Made by a program: the position numbers and the translations under genes
In this document: positions 31,716-40,131 of the stretch, in pieces
Layout of the letters: each line of letters starts with the position of its first letter
Numbering within the stretch: the first letter of the stretch is position 1
The notes under the pieces: generated by a model
Seen by the model: the letters and a program-made list of their open reading frames with translations, nothing else
Told to the model about the DNA's origin: nothing
Database searches by the model: none
Assembly (NCBI GenBank): GCA_003141555.1
Contig: PLMN01000004.1
Span: 1-64,000 of the forward strand
DNA length: 64,000 nt
Reading direction: 5' to 3'
Source: Candidatus Aminicenantota bacterium
GTDB lineage: Bacteria; Acidobacteriota; Aminicenantia; Aminicenantales; UBA4085

Positions 31716-32339
31716 TCAGGAGATCGGCGGCCGAGCGGTTCCCGGGAGCCGGCGGGTGGTCAGGGTGCGGTCGGCAAACAGATTGATCCGGAATGAGTTC
31801 GATTTCCGGGGGATCATCATGCAGGACTCGTTCAGCCGCACGCCCGCCGCGGTGGCGTCCACTCGGCTGAAGACGAAGCGCTGTTCCTCGAGCGGCCAGC
31901 CCCGGTAGCCCGGGCTGAACCGCCGGCCCGGCCAAAGACCCCGGCCGAGGGCTTCGGCCACGATCCGCCGTTCGACCGTCTTGAAGATCTGGACGATGGC
32001 CGCCGTGCCGAACGCGTCGAGCAGCAGCCCCCGGAGCATGTCCCCGTCCCTGAACTGGCGCTCGACCTCGTCCTCGAGAGCCGGGCCGATCGTGCTGATG
32101 CCCAAGGCCACCTGGACCGCCTTGTCGAAGATGCGGTGGCCGTTCGTCTCCCGATGGGGGAGGATCGTGTAGACGGCCCGGGGAGAGAGGAGCGACCGGA
32201 CTTCAGGCTCGATTTCCTCGATCATCCGGAGGAGGACGGGTGAGGCCGAAGCCCGACCGTTCCGCGAGCCGACGCGGATCAGGATATGATTCTCGTCCCA
32301 GCGGAAAGCGAAATCGGTGAGGAGGATCTGTTCCGACAT
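31716..32339 (-). CDS. MetH activation-domain-like protein (stand-alone)
   Basis: The 207-residue soluble protein resembles the vitamin B12-dependent methionine synthase activation domain and stand-alone relatives such as Thermotoga TM0269. It shows TIGPALEDEVERQF, LLLDAFGTAAI, and the SAM-site region RRFSPGYRGWPLEEQ followed by RLNESCMMIPRKSNSF. In MetH this domain binds SAM and supports reductive remethylation of cob(II)alamin. It is the last gene of the corrinoid methyltransferase operon, 12 bp after the MttB-family gene. It may be a second, SAM-linked reactivation factor for the corrinoid protein, or a methyl-transfer scaffold; both are inference. Confidence 0.75.
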   Translation of the reverse strand: MSEQILLTDFAFRWDENHILIRVGSRNGRASASPVLLRMIEEIEPEVRSLLSPRAVYTILPHRETNGHRIFDKAVQVALGISTIGPALEDEVERQFRDGDMLRGLLLDAFGTAAIVQIFKTVERRIVAEALGRGLWPGRRFSPGYRGWPLEEQRFVFSRVDATAAGVRLNESCMMIPRKSNSFRINLFADRTLTTRRLPGTARPPIS

Positions 32340-32351
32340 GGCGGTGTGACC

Positions 32352-33818
32352 TCAGTCGAGCTCCGGCAGTCGGTCGAGGCCGTTCCGCCGGGCGTCGGTT
32401 TCCATGATACTCCTGAGCTCCGCGCGCAGGGCGGGATCGGGGAGGTTCGGGGGAAGGGCCTCGAGGAGCGTCCTGACCCGTTCCGCGGCCCGATCGCCGA
32501 TGGATTTTCGCCCCGCGCCCTCCCAGGCGTCATACGTGTCCCGGTCGGCGAGCACGGCGGGGATGTGCTCGGCCCGGTACCAAGTCCGGGTGTGGGGCAT
32601 GGTCAAGAACTGGGTGTCCGGCCGGATCCCGGCGAACAGGTGCTCGGCGATCGGCTCCTCGCGCTGGGCGACGCCGGCCAGGAGGCGGTAGGCCATCCCG
32701 CAGATGTCGTTGTCGATGAGGAGCTTTTCCGAGCTCATGGTGCTTTCGAAGTCCATCATGCCCGGGCCCGAAACGACGTTGATCCCGGCGAGCGCGGCCA
32801 GCACGGCCCCGATGCCCGTCTCGAAGCCCGATTGGGCGTCATGAAGCTTGGCGTCGCTTAAGCCCATGTAGGCGTGGGTCGGGAGCTTGAGGGCTTTCCC
32901 GATCTGGGCGTAGGCCAGGTCGAGCATCATGGTCTCCATGGCCCCCATGGGCGTCGTGCCCTTGCGCATGTCGAAGCTCGCCGGAGAGCCGCCGAAGACG
33001 ACCGGCGAGCCCCGACGCGCGAGCTGGCAGATGACGAGGCCCGACAGGTTTTCGACCGTGTGCTGGACGAGGGCCCCCGCGAGGGTCACGGGCGCCGTCG
33101 CCCCGGTCAGGCTCATCGAGATGAGCTCCGAAGGCACGCCCGCCCGGGCGGCGTCGATCAGACTCTGGGCGGTCAGGTTGCTCCACTTCAGGGGCGGGGA
33201 GGGGCAGGCGTCGAAGATGGCCAGGGGTTTGCGCCGGAGCTCCTCGCTCCCGCCGCGGACCGCGGCCAGCATGTCGAGCATCGGCTTGAATCCTTCCACC
33301 CGGAACGTCCCCGTGACGGACGGCTTGGCGGAATAGAGAAGCCCGAGGTAGAGCCGATAGCTGTCGCCGACAATGGGCGGGACGTCGGAGGAGATGAGGG
33401 CCGTGCTCTGGAGATGGATGTGCTCGCAGGCGTCCGTCAGGCGGACGAGCCGGACGACGTCGGAGGTGAGGCCTTTCCGCTCGCGGCCGGTCGCGGAATC
33501 GAGGACCCGCGGGGCGGCGGACCCGGGGTCGAAATGGACCTCGTCCCCGCCGATCGAAAGCTCCCGGGCGCCGGACCGGTCCCAGACCGAGAACGAGGCG
33601 GGGGTGGCCGCCAGGCAGTCCTCGACGAGGCGGGGCGCGATCCGGACCCTGAGGGACGACGCATCGACCGGCATCCCGGCCTCCCGGAAAAGCCCCCGGG
33701 CTTCGCCGTTCTCCACGAAGACGCCTTCGCGATCGAGGATCGTGAACGCCTCGCCGACGATCTTGTCGACGAATTCCCGGCTCAGGAGCTCGATCCTGGG
33801 GCGCAGGGCGGGGATCAT
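32352..33818 (-). CDS. MttB-family (trimethylamine/quaternary amine) corrinoid-dependent methyltransferase, non-pyrrolysine
   Basis: The 488-residue protein matches the MttB superfamily in length and in segments such as VFGGSPASFDMRKGTTPMGA (about 274-293) and THAYMGLSDAKLHDAQSGFE (about 314-333). The region where archaeal MttB holds pyrrolysine is read through by sense codons; no in-frame stop occurs. Non-Pyl members demethylate quaternary amines such as glycine betaine (MtgB), proline betaine (MtpB) or carnitine, passing the methyl to a partner corrinoid protein. That partner is encoded directly upstream with a 4-bp overlap. The substrate is not determined. Confidence 0.88.
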   Translation of the reverse strand: MIPALRPRIELLSREFVDKIVGEAFTILDREGVFVENGEARGLFREAGMPVDASSLRVRIAPRLVEDCLAATPASFSVWDRSGARELSIGGDEVHFDPGSAAPRVLDSATGRERKGLTSDVVRLVRLTDACEHIHLQSTALISSDVPPIVGDSYRLYLGLLYSAKPSVTGTFRVEGFKPMLDMLAAVRGGSEELRRKPLAIFDACPSPPLKWSNLTAQSLIDAARAGVPSELISMSLTGATAPVTLAGALVQHTVENLSGLVICQLARRGSPVVFGGSPASFDMRKGTTPMGAMETMMLDLAYAQIGKALKLPTHAYMGLSDAKLHDAQSGFETGIGAVLAALAGINVVSGPGMMDFESTMSSEKLLIDNDICGMAYRLLAGVAQREEPIAEHLFAGIRPDTQFLTMPHTRTWYRAEHIPAVLADRDTYDAWEGAGRKSIGDRAAERVRTLLEALPPNLPDPALRAELRSIMETDARRNGLDRLPELD

Positions 33819-34480
33819 GACGACCTCTTCTCCGCGACGAGCTCCCCGGCCCGGGCTACGGCCGCCAGGGCGTTCTCCCCGTAGCCGTCCGCACCGATGT
33901 CCGCGGCCCAGGCGCGGTTGGCAGGCGCGCCGCCGACGAGGACCTTGAACCGGTCGCGCAGGCCGCGTTCCCGGAGCCTCTCGATGACCCGGCGCTGGCC
34001 GAGCATCGTGGTCGTCAGGAGGGCCGAGAGGCCGATGACGTCGGCGCGCGCCTCCACGGCCGCGTCGATGAAGCGGTCGGGCTTGACGTCGGCCCCCAGG
34101 TCGACGACGTCGAAGGCGTTGGCCGCGAGCATCGAGGCGACGAGGTTCTTGCCGATGTCGTGGATGTCGCCCTCGATCGTCCCGATGACGATCCGGCCGC
34201 GGGACAGGCCGACGGCCGCCGAAGCTTCCAAAGCCGGCTTGAGAACGGCCATGGCCGCCTTCATGCAGGCCGCGCTGCTGATCAGCTCCGGCAGGAAGTA
34301 ATCGCCGCTCTCCCAGAGGAGACCGACCCGCCGGATGCCGGGAATGTAGCCCTTTTCGATCACGTCCTGCAGGTCAAGGCGGTCCTCGAGGGCTCTCCGG
34401 GCCAAGCCGGCGGCCGCCTCGGGATCGCCGACGACGATGGCTTCGGCCATGCGCCCGTAGATCGCGTTCAGGTCATCCAT
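33815..34480 (-). CDS. Corrinoid (B12-binding) methyl-carrier protein, MtbC/MtqC family
   Basis: The 221-residue protein has the helical cap domain (about 1-88) and a Rossmann-type cobalamin domain (about 95-215). The latter carries the lower-ligand motif GDIHDIG (D105, H107, G110), GLSALLTTTM and VGGAPAN. It carries the methyl group on cobalt between the MttB-family enzyme and an acceptor methyltransferase. Overlap with the methyltransferase gene (4 bp) and 16-bp spacing from the reactivase gene show a single operon. Confidence 0.93.
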   Translation of the reverse strand: MDDLNAIYGRMAEAIVVGDPEAAAGLARRALEDRLDLQDVIEKGYIPGIRRVGLLWESGDYFLPELISSAACMKAAMAVLKPALEASAAVGLSRGRIVIGTIEGDIHDIGKNLVASMLAANAFDVVDLGADVKPDRFIDAAVEARADVIGLSALLTTTMLGQRRVIERLRERGLRDRFKVLVGGAPANRAWAADIGADGYGENALAAVARAGELVAEKRSS

Positions 34481-34496
34481 ATCTCAACACTCCTTG

Positions 34497-36272
34497 TCAG
34501 CTCCATTCCCTGAATTCGAGGGCGTCCACGAACAGGCTCTGGAAGGCGGAACCCCGAGCCAGGCTTTCGTGCCCGATCCGGCCGGCGAGAGCCTCGCACC
34601 TCTCCCGTTCCGCCATTGAAAGGAGCATGGCCCGGGCTCCGGCCAACGAGGAGTTGCCGATGAAACGGATCTTCTCCCGCGCGACGAGGGGGAGAAGGCC
34701 GAGGGCCATGGCGTTCCCAAGGTCGAGATAGCTGCCGAACGCCCCCGCGACATAAACTTCGTCGAGATCGGGGATCGAGAGCCCCTCCGCCTCGAGGAGC
34801 ATCCGGATGCCCGTCTTGACCGCCGCCGCCGCGAGTTGGACTTCACGGATGTCCTTTTGGGTCAGGACGATTCCATCAGCCACGGGGATGGCCTTGGAGG
34901 GATCGCGGATTTGTCCCTGGGGAGACACGAGGCCCCGCCGCAGGGCCAGGGCGACGAGGTCGATGAGACCCGTGCCGCAGACCCCCTGGGGGGGCTCGCC
35001 GCCGACGGTCTCGACGGCGACGGCCGTCCCTTTCCCGTCCGCGGCCTTGAACACGGCCCCGGGCACGGCGAGCATGCCGCAGCTGATCGCCATGCCCTCG
35101 AAGGCCGGCCCGGCCGCGGTGGACGTGGCCGTGAACTTCGATCCGTTCTTCAGGACGAGCTCGCCGTTCGTCCCCAGATCGATGAACAGAAAATTCCCGG
35201 GGCGATGGACGGCGTCGATGGCCGCCAGGCCGGCGGAGATATCGCCGCCGACGAAGCTCTTGAGGTTCGGGGCGACGATCACCTTCCCAGCCGAGCTGAT
35301 TTTCAGCCCGCTCTCGGAAGCCTGAACCGGAGCGATCGACGAAAAGACGGCGAAATACGGCGCGACGGCGAGCGTGTCCACGGGCAATCCCAGGAAGAGA
35401 TGGTTCATGGCCGTATTGCCCGCCACGACGGCTTCGTAGATCTCACGGCCCGCCACCCCGCTGCTCTCGCAGAGGCTCCCGATCAAGGCATTCAGAGAAT
35501 CGAGGAGGACCCGGCGCAGCTCCTCCGCCCGGGCGGGATCGCCGAACGCGGCCGTGATCCGGGACATCACGTCGGCCCCGAACTTCACCTGCGCGTTCAA
35601 GGCCGTGGCCGTGGCCATGACCCGCCCGGCGACGAGGTCGACCAGCTCAGCCGCCACGGTCGTCGTTCCGAGGTCCAGGGCGAGGCCGAAGGCCCGGTCC
35701 GCCGTGTCGCCCGGCTCGACCGCAAGGAGCTCCCGGCCGCCGTGGAGGACGACCGTGATCTCGCCGGCGGGACCGCCGCCCTCGGCCCACGCCCGGACGA
35801 GCGACCGGAGGGCGTCCGGCGAAGCGGTCAAGCCCTCGCCCGGAAACCTCGCCCGGACGAGGTCGAAAAGCGCCTGGGGCTCGGTCAGGGCGGGACTGGG
35901 GATGGCGAGCCGGATCTTGCGGACGGCCGGATCGAGGGCGAACGAGCGTTCAACGCCCTGGCTGAGGACCGGCATCCGCGGCAAGAGGGAGGACGCCGGG
36001 ATGCGGACCGCCAGGTCGCCGGCGATCCTGACCCGGCAGGCCAGCCGGAAATGGGGGGCGAGGCGCCGGCGCGCCGCCAGGGCCCGCTCGTCCTCGCCGG
36101 CTTCGGGGAGCGTCCCGCGGACGATCTCGACGAAGCACTTGCCGCACAGCCCCCGGCCGCCGCAGTAAAGGCTGAGGGGGATGCCGGCCTTGGCCAGGGC
36201 GTCGTCGAGGCCTTCGCCTTCGGTTGCGGCAAGATCGATCCCGTCGGGCAGGATCTTCAAGATCGGGCTCAT
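34497..36272 (-). CDS. Corrinoid protein reductive reactivase (RACE/RACo: 2Fe-2S + ASKHA ATPase)
   Basis: The 591-residue product has an N-terminal [2Fe-2S] ferredoxin domain with C37, C43, C46 and C79 (LYCGGRGLCGKCF ... RLAC), a linker, and a large ASKHA/DUF4445 region from about 190. That region carries FGLALDLGTTTVAAEL, FLFIDLGTNGELVL and YVAGAFGSYLDLGNA. Such proteins use ATP to drive electron transfer onto inactive cob(II)alamin carriers. The ATG at 36272 overlaps the permease stop (ATGA), so a longer frame reaching 36323 is not needed. Confidence 0.92.
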   Translation of the reverse strand: MSPILKILPDGIDLAATEGEGLDDALAKAGIPLSLYCGGRGLCGKCFVEIVRGTLPEAGEDERALAARRRLAPHFRLACRVRIAGDLAVRIPASSLLPRMPVLSQGVERSFALDPAVRKIRLAIPSPALTEPQALFDLVRARFPGEGLTASPDALRSLVRAWAEGGGPAGEITVVLHGGRELLAVEPGDTADRAFGLALDLGTTTVAAELVDLVAGRVMATATALNAQVKFGADVMSRITAAFGDPARAEELRRVLLDSLNALIGSLCESSGVAGREIYEAVVAGNTAMNHLFLGLPVDTLAVAPYFAVFSSIAPVQASESGLKISSAGKVIVAPNLKSFVGGDISAGLAAIDAVHRPGNFLFIDLGTNGELVLKNGSKFTATSTAAGPAFEGMAISCGMLAVPGAVFKAADGKGTAVAVETVGGEPPQGVCGTGLIDLVALALRRGLVSPQGQIRDPSKAIPVADGIVLTQKDIREVQLAAAAVKTGIRMLLEAEGLSIPDLDEVYVAGAFGSYLDLGNAMALGLLPLVAREKIRFIGNSSLAGARAMLLSMAERERCEALAGRIGHESLARGSAFQSLFVDALEFREWS

Positions 36273-37663
36273 TTCCGTCCTCCCTGCGCGGCGGGCCGCA
36301 TCCGGCGGCGCTTTGCGCTCCAAGCATAATACGCCGGAACGCCCGCCAGGACAAACCCCGCGCCGGCCAGGGCCTGCACGGGACGGGAGAACAGCACCGA
36401 GACGAGGATCACGACGTTGACCAGGATGTAAAGTCCCGGCAGCCAGGGGTATCCCCGGACGCGATACGGCCGTTCGCGCCGGGGAGCCTTCCGGCGGAGG
36501 ACGATCAAGGCGAAGCCCGTTGCACCGAAAAAGAGGACGAGGACGAACGTGACGAATTCGATCAGGCTCTGATAGGTCCCGGTCAGGCAGAGCAATCCCG
36601 CCCAGCCGAGCTGGGCCAGGATCGCGGTCGAGGGCACGCGGAAGCGGGGGTGGACGAAGGCCAGCCGCCGGAAAAACAGGCCGTCGCGGGCCATGGCGAA
36701 CGACACGCGCGGGCTAAAAAGGATATTGGCGCTCAGGCAGCCCAGCGTTGCCGCGGCCACCAGAACGGCGAAGATCCGGCCGGCGCCGGGCCCGAAGAGC
36801 GCGCCCGCGGCCGCCTCGCCGATCCTGACGACGCCCCGCATTTTATCCACGGAAAGGGCGAGGCTGTAGACGACGTTGGCCGCGAGGTACAGCCCGGCTA
36901 CGGCGAGCGTCCCCAGGATGAGGGCCCGGGGAAGGCTCCGCCGCGGGTCCCGGACTTCTTCGGCGGTACAGCTTACGGAATACCAGCCGTCGTACGTCCA
37001 CAGCACCGCGAGGAGCGCCGCGCCGAAGCTCGGCAGCGAGGGCAGGGGACCGCGGGGGAAGAAAGGCACGAGATTCGCGGATCCCGACTTCGCTCCGAGG
37101 AGGAGGCCGAGGACGAGGAAGGCCGCGAGCGCGCCGAGCCGGAGGATGACCATCCCGTTCTGGAAACGCGCCCCGCTTTGGACCCCGAGGCAATTCAGCC
37201 CGGAGAGCGCGGCGATGGCCCCGATCGCGACGAGGTGGCCGGCCGACAGGGTCAAGGACACGGGGCCGATCGAGGCGGAGAAAATCTCCCGGGTGAGCGA
37301 CAGGGAGGGGACGATCGAGCCGAAATATTCGGCAAAGCCCATGGCCAGGGCGGCGATTCCCGCGCTGCCTATGATCCAGAAAAATGTCCAGCCGTAAAGA
37401 AAAGCAACCCCCTCGCCGTAAGCCTCCCGCAGATAAACGTAGGGGCCGCCGGCGCCGGGGAACATCGTCCCCAGCTCGGCGTAGGTCATGGCCCCGAAGA
37501 GGGTCAATCCTCCGCCAAGAAGCCAGACGAGCCAGATGAGGAGCGGCGAAGGAAGCTCTGCCGCGATCAAGCCCGTCGTCAGGAAAATGCCCGAACCGAA
37601 AACCGAACCTATCACGAGATAAATCGAATCAAACTGCCCGAGCTTCCTGGCCAGCTCCGTCAT
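36269..37663 (-). CDS. APC-superfamily amino acid/amine permease
   Basis: The 464-residue integral membrane protein has about 12 helices and the APC start LGQFDSIYLVIGSVFGSGIFLTTGLIA with the GSGIF unwound-helix motif. It resembles the LAT/cationic amino acid branch. As first gene of the corrinoid methyltransferase operon it probably imports the methylated substrate. An APC carrier instead of a BCCT betaine carrier hints that the substrate is an N-methylated amino acid or amine (inference). Its upstream region is the AT-rich 37664-38399 segment. Confidence 0.88.
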   Translation of the reverse strand: MTELARKLGQFDSIYLVIGSVFGSGIFLTTGLIAAELPSPLLIWLVWLLGGGLTLFGAMTYAELGTMFPGAGGPYVYLREAYGEGVAFLYGWTFFWIIGSAGIAALAMGFAEYFGSIVPSLSLTREIFSASIGPVSLTLSAGHLVAIGAIAALSGLNCLGVQSGARFQNGMVILRLGALAAFLVLGLLLGAKSGSANLVPFFPRGPLPSLPSFGAALLAVLWTYDGWYSVSCTAEEVRDPRRSLPRALILGTLAVAGLYLAANVVYSLALSVDKMRGVVRIGEAAAGALFGPGAGRIFAVLVAAATLGCLSANILFSPRVSFAMARDGLFFRRLAFVHPRFRVPSTAILAQLGWAGLLCLTGTYQSLIEFVTFVLVLFFGATGFALIVLRRKAPRRERPYRVRGYPWLPGLYILVNVVILVSVLFSRPVQALAGAGFVLAGVPAYYAWSAKRRRMRPAAQGGRK

Positions 37664-38399: not shown

Positions 38400-38423
38400 T
38401 ATATGTCGGCCGGCCGACATATA
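38400..38423. repeat. Perfect 24-bp palindrome upstream of parA (candidate operator or parS-like site)
   Basis: The half-site TATATGTCGGCC (38400-38411) is followed by its exact reverse complement (38412-38423). It lies 108 bp before the parA GTG. A long perfect palindrome directly upstream of a par operon fits an autoregulatory operator or a centromere for the partner ParB. It does not match the common chromosomal parS (TGTTTCACGTGAAACA). Confidence 0.8.
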
Positions 38424-38531
38424 TACTCCTCGCAAGGGGGCTTGTCATTTTTCCGGGAATTCAGTATTCTTGTATACGCCAATTCCGCTGGCCGATATGC
38501 ACGGGAGAGGCGAAGGCGAAAGGAGGCGAGA

Positions 38532-39296
38532 GTGATCGTCGCCGTAACGAATCAAAAGGGTGGAGTAGGGAAGACCACGACAGCTGTCAACGTTGCCGCG
38601 GCGCTGGCTTTCTCCGGTTGCCGTGTGCTCTTGGTCGACACCGACTCCCAAGGTCACAGTTCCAAGTCCATTGTCCGCGACATGGAAAAGCTGGACAAGT
38701 CTCTTTATGACGTCATGATGAACCCGGGGCTCAAGCTCGCGAGCGTGACGCTCGCCTCCACGGTGCCTGGACTCGACGTAGCGATCTCGCGCATATCGAT
38801 GGCCAAGCTCGAAGCTTCGCTCCTCGGACAGATCGATGGCCACTTCAGGCTCAAGGATGTCCTTGAGCCCGTCCGGGAGAAATACGATTTCATTTTTATC
38901 GACACGCCGCCGACACTGGGTCTAATCACCCTGAACTCGCTTGTGGCCGCGACTCACCTCTTGATTCCCATCCAATCCTCCTATCTCTGCCTCGAGGGGA
39001 CGGACGATCTTCTCGAGACGATAGAGAAGGTGAGGAGGGTGGCCAATCCCGGCCTTCAGATCCTGGGCGTCCTTATAACCCTCCACGACACGCGCCTGAA
39101 CATTGCCAGGGACGTCGAGGAGCGGATCCAGAGGGTCTTTGGCGAAAAGGTCTTCCACACCCATATTTCAAAGAGCGTCAAGCTCGAGGAAAGCCCAGCT
39201 TATAAGGAATCCGTTTTCACTTATGCCAGCGGCTCCGTCGGGGCCCTTCAATACAAAAAAGTCGCCGAGGAGATATTGGAACGTGCAAAAAACTAA
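38532..39296 (+). CDS. parA: ParA/Soj-family partition ATPase
   Basis: The 254-residue deviant-Walker ATPase has KGGVGKTTT (about residues 9-17) with the signature lysine, DTDSQGHSS (Walker A', where most Soj proteins have DxDPQGN), and FIDTPPTLG (Walker B). It has no N-terminal DNA-binding domain, as in chromosomal or type Ib ParA. The GTG at 38532 is fixed by AGGAGG (38521-38526, 5-nt spacing); an ATG at 38403 lies inside the palindrome and is unlikely. The ParB gene overlaps its end. Lower GC than the genes on either side suggests a distinct history. Confidence 0.93.
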   Translation: MIVAVTNQKGGVGKTTTAVNVAAALAFSGCRVLLVDTDSQGHSSKSIVRDMEKLDKSLYDVMMNPGLKLASVTLASTVPGLDVAISRISMAKLEASLLGQIDGHFRLKDVLEPVREKYDFIFIDTPPTLGLITLNSLVAATHLLIPIQSSYLCLEGTDDLLETIEKVRRVANPGLQILGVLITLHDTRLNIARDVEERIQRVFGEKVFHTHISKSVKLEESPAYKESVFTYASGSVGALQYKKVAEEILERAKN

Positions 39297-40131
39297 GCGC
39301 TCTGGTCTTCCGGAAACGTTGGGCATGCGGCATGACACCCATTTTGTGGATTTTATTAGCAAGAAAACAGCGGCGCCTCTCGTGCGGCTGATAGCTTTGG
39401 ACAAGATCGAGCCTAATCCCCGCCAAGCGCGAAATGAGCTCGGCGACATCGAGGAATTGATGTCATCCATCAAGGCTAAAGGCATCCTCGAGCCAATCAT
39501 CGTCAGGCCCAGGGCGGACAAATACGAGATTATCGCCGGGGAGCGCCGGTTCATCGCTTCCCGGAACATCGGCTTGAAGGAAATTCCGTGCATCGAGATG
39601 TCGGTTTCGGACAACGAGGCGATGGAAATCTCGCTGATCGAGAACCTTCAGAGAAAAGATCTGGACATTTTTGAAGAAGCCGACGGGCTAAAGGTCCTGA
39701 TGGATACTTATGAATACAGCCATGGCCAGATTTCGGATAAGATCGGAAAGGCCCGCTCGACGATCACGGAGATCATTAACATCAGCCGCATCCCGCCCGC
39801 CGTCCGAAAGCTCTGCCAGGCGCACAGCTTGGACAAGAACAGGAGTTTGCTCATCGAAGTTTCGAAGCTCAAGAACGAAGAGGAGATGCTGCGCATCGTC
39901 GAAAATATCGCAGAACGAGGTCTAAAGCGAGAGGATACCCGAGATCTGACCAAGCAACTGAAAGGCAAGGACGGCGAATCTAAGAAGCCAAAATACTATA
40001 TCTTTAATTATAGTCCCAAGGAAGATAAAAGTTACAGCGTAAAAATCGAATTCAAAAAAGAGAGTGTCAGCCGGGCCGAAGTCATTCGCGTCCTCGAGGA
40101 TTTGTTGAACAAGCTCAAGCAGCGCCCGTGA
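39283..40131 (+). CDS. parB: ParB/Spo0J-family partition protein
   Basis: The 282-residue protein has the ParB N-terminal CTPase/clamp domain (about 35-130: KIEPNPRQARNE, GILEPIIVRP, IIAGERRFIAS, ENLQRKDLDIFEEADG). An HTH segment follows (YSHGQISDKIGKARSTITEIINI), and the C-terminal dimer region ends in a basic-amphipathic helix. GTG at 39283, behind GAGGAG (39267-39272), overlaps parA by 14 nt; ATG at 39325 is an alternative giving 268 residues. Codon use is AT-richer than flanking genes. ParB should bind parS-like sites; the palindrome at 38400 is the obvious local candidate. Confidence 0.9.
   Translation: MQKTKRSGLPETLGMRHDTHFVDFISKKTAAPLVRLIALDKIEPNPRQARNELGDIEELMSSIKAKGILEPIIVRPRADKYEIIAGERRFIASRNIGLKEIPCIEMSVSDNEAMEISLIENLQRKDLDIFEEADGLKVLMDTYEYSHGQISDKIGKARSTITEIINISRIPPAVRKLCQAHSLDKNRSLLIEVSKLKNEEEMLRIVENIAERGLKREDTRDLTKQLKGKDGESKKPKYYIFNYSPKEDKSYSVKIEFKKESVSRAEVIRVLEDLLNKLKQRP

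Follow-up and report, generated by a model that had tools for sequence, protein, structure and literature searches.

Genetic work in Ruegeria and Phaeobacter has shown that methionine synthase can be divided into separate proteins around one corrinoid protein (PMC12478193, PMC5764234), and deletion of the corrinoid gene of Ruegeria causes both methionine auxotrophy and a loss of betaine demethylation (PMC12478193). For MtgB, the glycine betaine methyltransferase, docking predicted Y94, N199, R309 and H345 as ligands of glycine betaine (PMC6855144). The Thermotoga protein TM0269 is, according to the title of Huang et al. 2007 (cited in PMC7857596), required to reactivate MetH. Here, we describe a locus combining such parts in the window, the 64,000-nucleotide stretch of a Candidatus Aminicenantota contig (PLMN01000004.1) that we analyzed. 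We read it, with a probability of about 0.72, as the cobalamin hub of a methionine synthase split into separate proteins, to which an amine methyl-donor arm is attached.

The locus consists of five genes on the minus strand (Table 1). The permease and RACo-type genes and the corrinoid and MttB genes overlap by 4 bp, and the other two gaps measure 16 and 12 bp. The mechanically called frame of the RACo-type gene begins with TTG at 36323, but an alternative ATG at 36272 has GGGAGG upstream and makes the gene overlap the stop of the permease gene by 4 bp (ATGA). The positions and the short overlaps and gaps of the first-pass annotation were all reproduced, and family searches bore out its description of the locus as a corrinoid methyltransferase operon whose MttB enzyme is of the non-pyrrolysine kind and whose permease belongs to the APC family.

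Table 1. Genes of the corrinoid operon, with positions in the window
Feature	Position	Strand	Remarks
APC-family permease (AA_permease_2)	36269..37663	-	PF13520 190 bits; operon gene 1
RACo-type ATP-dependent corrinoid reductive activase	34497..36272	-	Fer2, RACo_linker, Raco_middle, RACo_C_ter; 2Fe-2S + ASKHA
Corrinoid (cobalamin-binding) protein, MtgC/MtbC-like	33815..34480	-	PF02607 + PF02310
Non-pyrrolysine MttB-superfamily methyltransferase	32352..33818	-	PF06253 297 bits
Stand-alone MetH-activation-type protein, TM0269-like	31716..32339	-	PF02965 20.8 bits, below cut-off

The corrinoid protein carries the cobalt-ligand motif DIHDIG and is the only protein combining PF02607 and PF02310 that profile searches found in the genome. 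Ten other B12-binding proteins were seen, nine of them radical SAM proteins and one a 154-aa protein with the B12-binding domain alone, a layout as in mutase small subunits; the product of the window is thus the only MetH-type cobalamin carrier found. The RACo-type protein has all the domains of such activases, 2Fe-2S, linker, middle and ASKHA C-terminal (PF00111, PF17650, PF17651 and PF14574), and matches RACo (PDB 3zyy) with 1.3e-100. For the fifth gene, described earlier as MetH-activation-like, the resemblance is weak for the single sequence and solid at the level of family profile and fold: 21 of 21 family members match PF02965, the family profile hits TM0269 (1j6r) with 4.5e-13, and the AF2 model (pLDDT 94.8) finds 1j6r as its best fold match, followed by MetH reactivation domains. 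The profile and the fold both place it with TM0269 and the MetH activation domains, and in five genomes of genus g15 (G040, G060, G062, G082 and G084) a homologue adjoins MetH, as in the TM0268/TM0269 pair. The best NCBIfam relatives of the permease are amino acid transporters, all under cut-off, and its type does not name the substrate. A permease homologue adjoins or overlaps mttB in Ignavibacteria (L191) and lies near it in two further loci (L198 and L168); the permease of the operon presumably takes up the methyl donor or a ligand resembling an amino acid.

In the rest of the genome, profile searches found neither MetE nor MetH, and PF01717, matched in only 1 of the 99 genomes searched, had no match. 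A single PF02574 protein was found, a stand-alone homocysteine S-methyltransferase (HcyMT) in a 301-aa frame on contig C29 and thus outside the operon. In a tree in which all rows carry the zinc-cysteine motifs, it grouped with the HcyMTs linked to the operon in other genomes (support 96/93) and apart from the N-terminal domains of MetH (98/93), and it is orthologous to the operon-linked enzymes. Two THF:corrinoid-type methyltransferase (MeTr) domains are encoded on contigs C2 and C13. One MeTr-type protein has 291 aa, its gene overlapping an MTHFR-like gene, and the other is part of a 786-aa fusion of MTHFR, the MTHFR C-terminal domain (DUF5981) and MeTr (L034 1336-3696, contig C13 of G000). 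PF02574, PF00809 and PF02607+PF02310 are hence present as separate proteins with no complete MetH, and a PF06253 methyltransferase is encoded together with the corrinoid protein, as expected for a split system. We also considered wider partners. The fusion was rejected as a general partner, being confined mainly to two families of the order plus weak outliers, as was an MtgD-like protein (L033) present in only 17 of 148 genomes, and the MtrH-type acceptor (PF02007) was absent from the order.

The block of permease, RACo-type, corrinoid and MttB genes, in some cases joined by that of the activation protein, is conserved throughout the order, mostly at 40-80% identity, a togetherness far beyond chance that answers the earlier question of whether the partners are conserved together. 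In many relatives from several families, a PF02574 HcyMT gene of approximately 300 aa lies between the RACo-type and corrinoid genes; Zixibacteria, Krumholzibacteriota and Asgard archaea have the genes arranged as corrinoid-HcyMT-activation-MttB, and one Gemmatimonadota locus (L196) has corrinoid, MttB, MeTr and HcyMT in one row. HcyMT was found at most 6.5 kb from the clade MttB in 30 of 80 named loci, many of them on short contigs (21 from Aminicenantes, 3 each from Zixibacteria and Asgard archaea and 1 each from Krumholzibacteriota, Gemmatimonadota and an unclassified source), and in only 13 of the 34 Aminicenantes loci that extend 3.5 kb or more to each side. Four MttB-positive genomes of genus g15 (G014, G019, G095 and G098) have an HcyMT-MeTr pair at a separate locus. 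The first-pass annotation had left the methyl acceptor open. The candidate acceptor enzymes in the genome itself, together with the HcyMT inside the operon of many relatives and other phyla, largely resolve this, and the acceptor of the corrinoid methyl is probably homocysteine, along with THF.

Genes beside the operon gave no clue to the substrate, as the recognizable ones look like housekeeping genes. Divergent parA- and parB-like genes lie next to it at 38403-40131 of the window. Homologues of both recur in 34 cluster loci compared, some of these loci being duplicates of one another, which suggests that the operon has a fixed chromosomal place.

Within genus g15, the operon and MetH hardly ever occur in the same genome. 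Eight of the nine MttB-positive genomes are without MetH, G056 carrying both, and of the ten MttB-negative genomes eight have a true MetH, a single 778-863-aa frame that covers the HcyMT and cobalamin regions and, in the majority, also a recognizable pterin region; the remaining two show only a fragment of a PF02574 match. With the fragment genomes dropped, Fisher's test, which ignores kinship, gave P = 0.0004; with them counted as being without MetH, and kinship again ignored, it gave P = 0.005. This swap of the operon for MetH bears on the idea that the cluster serves a purely catabolic demethylation of quaternary amines to THF, similar to MtgABC and apart from methionine, which HcyMT would make otherwise. 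The tested non-pyrrolysine MttB homologues are indeed mostly quaternary-amine demethylases (PMC8604678, PMC6855144), MeTr was found in the window genome and others among those surveyed, and the MTHFR-DUF5981-MeTr fusion could process the methyl. However, it is HcyMT, more than MeTr, that stays beside the clade MttB across phyla, and searches of the genome turned up no second MetH-type corrinoid protein that HcyMT could use. Together with the exchange within one genus, this makes a purely catabolic role improbable. Where the first-pass annotation pictured a stand-alone operon for one amine, the comparison of genomes points to a core that is probably the methionine synthase of the organism and to which amine demethylation is attached.

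The MttB gene, the sole PF06253 match detected in the genome, has no internal stop and encodes Leu320 at the pyrrolysine column, the in-frame amber codon of trimethylamine MttB being absent. Its closest named records come from Candidatus Aminicenantes metagenome-assembled genomes (58-79% identity). In a 51-row tree, it belongs to a 33-row clade with a support of 100/100 and a stem of approximately one change per column, spanning Aminicenantes, Bacteroidota, Ignavibacteriota, Zixibacteria, Gemmatimonadota, Krumholzibacteriota, Spirochaetota and Heimdallarchaeota. The clade is apart from Methanosarcina MttB, Sinorhizobium MttB (4yyc, the pSymB protein) and Desulfitobacterium MtgB, to which the window protein is about 29-30% identical. 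The comparison with known relatives proposed in the first-pass annotation thus separates the enzyme from MtgB, in a tree whose rows are without Eubacterium limosum MtpB, MtcB and MtyB and within whose clade an E. limosum member could fall. The four predicted betaine ligands of MtgB, kept in Sinorhizobium MttB, are all replaced, by S100, C205, H315 and G351 in the same order; in a 16-sequence alignment, S100, C205 and G351 were invariant and H315 nearly so. Binding of glycine betaine in the manner of MtgB hence appears unlikely.

The replaced ligands are also consistent with the MttB-clade protein being no amine demethylase but the pterin arm of the synthase, binding methyl-THF or methyl-H4MPT in place of the folate domain of MetH. 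Such a role would fit the complementarity of the operon and MetH and the TIM-barrel fold that MttB shares with MeTr. Profile matches to MeTr were seen in 24 of 40 genomes, those of G035 and G079 being FolP genes; this leaves 22 genomes with MeTr and 18 operon-type genomes without, the latter largely chosen for a FolP-like PF00809 match or none and several of them fragmented. One of the 18, G091, is a single 4.35-Mb contig in which profile searches detected no MetH, MetE, MeTr or MtrH. On the other hand, most of the well-completed genomes keep MeTr as well, and L196 has it in the same row as MttB. The AF2 model of the window protein (pLDDT 85; matches 9yce, 2qne and 7xcl) has MtgB and MttB as its best fold matches, with MeTr far below, and the presence of a permease next to MttB in several phyla points to a ligand that is taken up. 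We thus regard a pterin-binding role as very improbable. The gene content of G091 also makes a folate-independent route conceivable in part of the clade, with the methyl of an imported amine passing via the corrinoid protein directly to homocysteine, in a synthase not built on MetE-like core enzymes, but we consider this rather unlikely.

Whereas the gene-level findings above are observed, we infer the individual reactions of a split methionine synthase with an amine arm, the direction of methyl flow and the amine nature of the donor. We do so from homologues and from two genetically studied systems, MtgBCDE in Ruegeria (PMC12478193) and the Phaeobacter split synthase (PMC5764234). An N-methylated substrate, probably brought in by the permease, would donate its methyl via the MttB-clade enzyme to the Co(I) of the corrinoid protein, and the stand-alone HcyMT would pass it from there to homocysteine, giving methionine. 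The MeTr-type proteins would connect this corrinoid protein with methyl-THF, on either the donor or the acceptor side. Co(II) would be re-reduced in an ATP-driven step by the RACo-type protein, and the TM0269-like protein probably acts in a SAM-dependent reactivation of the cofactor. Several observations count against this reading: the organism's own HcyMT is encoded outside the operon, and most Aminicenantes loci with enough flanking sequence likewise show none nearby (21 of 34); the predicted betaine ligands are replaced; the permease type does not point to a particular substrate; and no SAM or cobalamin riboswitch was found upstream of the operon, either here or in the relatives.

Other MttB genes were seen among the relatives. 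Two genomes of the same class carry MttB genes with an in-frame TAG (YVGGT*GDSK; L013 around base 2110 in G129 and L022 around base 2430 in G136), which, with TAG at the pyrrolysine position, are probably true pyrrolysine MttB. Some Aminicenantes (L002 in G030, L003 in G015 and L004 in G037) have several additional MttB paralogues that belong to other clades, with as many as nine matches in one genome, and in G015 and G037 a MeTr gene adjoins them; these paralogues probably represent separate catabolic systems. The Rfam model PYLIS_3 matched within non-pyrrolysine mttB genes of relatives (L064 9531-9630, L090 10087-10186, L195 4207-4306 and L198 10948-11045). These genes read through without a stop, so we rejected the matches as evidence of pyrrolysine, and they warn against using the model as such.

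If our reading is right, the operon is the likely methionine synthase of a whole uncultured group without MetE and often without MetH, for which our literature search found no paper linking Aminicenantes with methionine synthase. The connection of amine demethylation with methionine synthesis would then reach beyond marine Proteobacteria to several further bacterial phyla and Asgard archaea, and a label of plain trimethylamine or betaine catabolism on such genes would mislead. As the MttB proteins form a deep, defined clade with a fixed active-site pattern, the substrate can be searched for directly.

Among the known systems, MtgB of Desulfitobacterium hafniense (PDB 2qne, 9yce) shares with the window MttB the superfamily, the fold and the lack of pyrrolysine, but the latter falls outside the MtgB clade and differs in the four predicted ligands. 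RACo (PDB 3zyy) and RamA provide the counterpart of the reactivase, RACo sharing its domain layout with the N-terminal 2Fe-2S domain; here, however, the protein accompanies a MetH-type corrinoid protein rather than CoFeSP and scores below cut-off against the AcsV and RamA models. With TM0268/TM0269 of Thermotoga maritima, the operon has the stand-alone activation protein in common, 1j6r being its best match, but TM0269 serves a multidomain MetH and the window protein sits with an MttB-corrinoid pair. MtgBCDE of Ruegeria pomeroyi and the split synthase of Phaeobacter inhibens consist, as here, of a separate PF06253 donor, PF02607/PF02310, PF00809 and PF02574 proteins and an ASKHA-type reactivase, in genomes without MetH and mostly without MetE. 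Sinorhizobium meliloti pSymB has a matching parts list, including MeTr, MTHFR and MTHFR C-terminal genes in a row that correspond to the single 786-aa fusion described above. The corrinoid protein is 44% identical to its S. meliloti counterpart, and the MttB protein, from a different clade, is 28% identical. The system of the window further differs from MtgBCDE in having a TM0269-like activation protein instead of DUF1638 and an APC permease, and it occurs in Aminicenantes, several other bacterial phyla and Asgard archaea, whereas the hosts of MtgBCDE are aerobic marine Proteobacteria.
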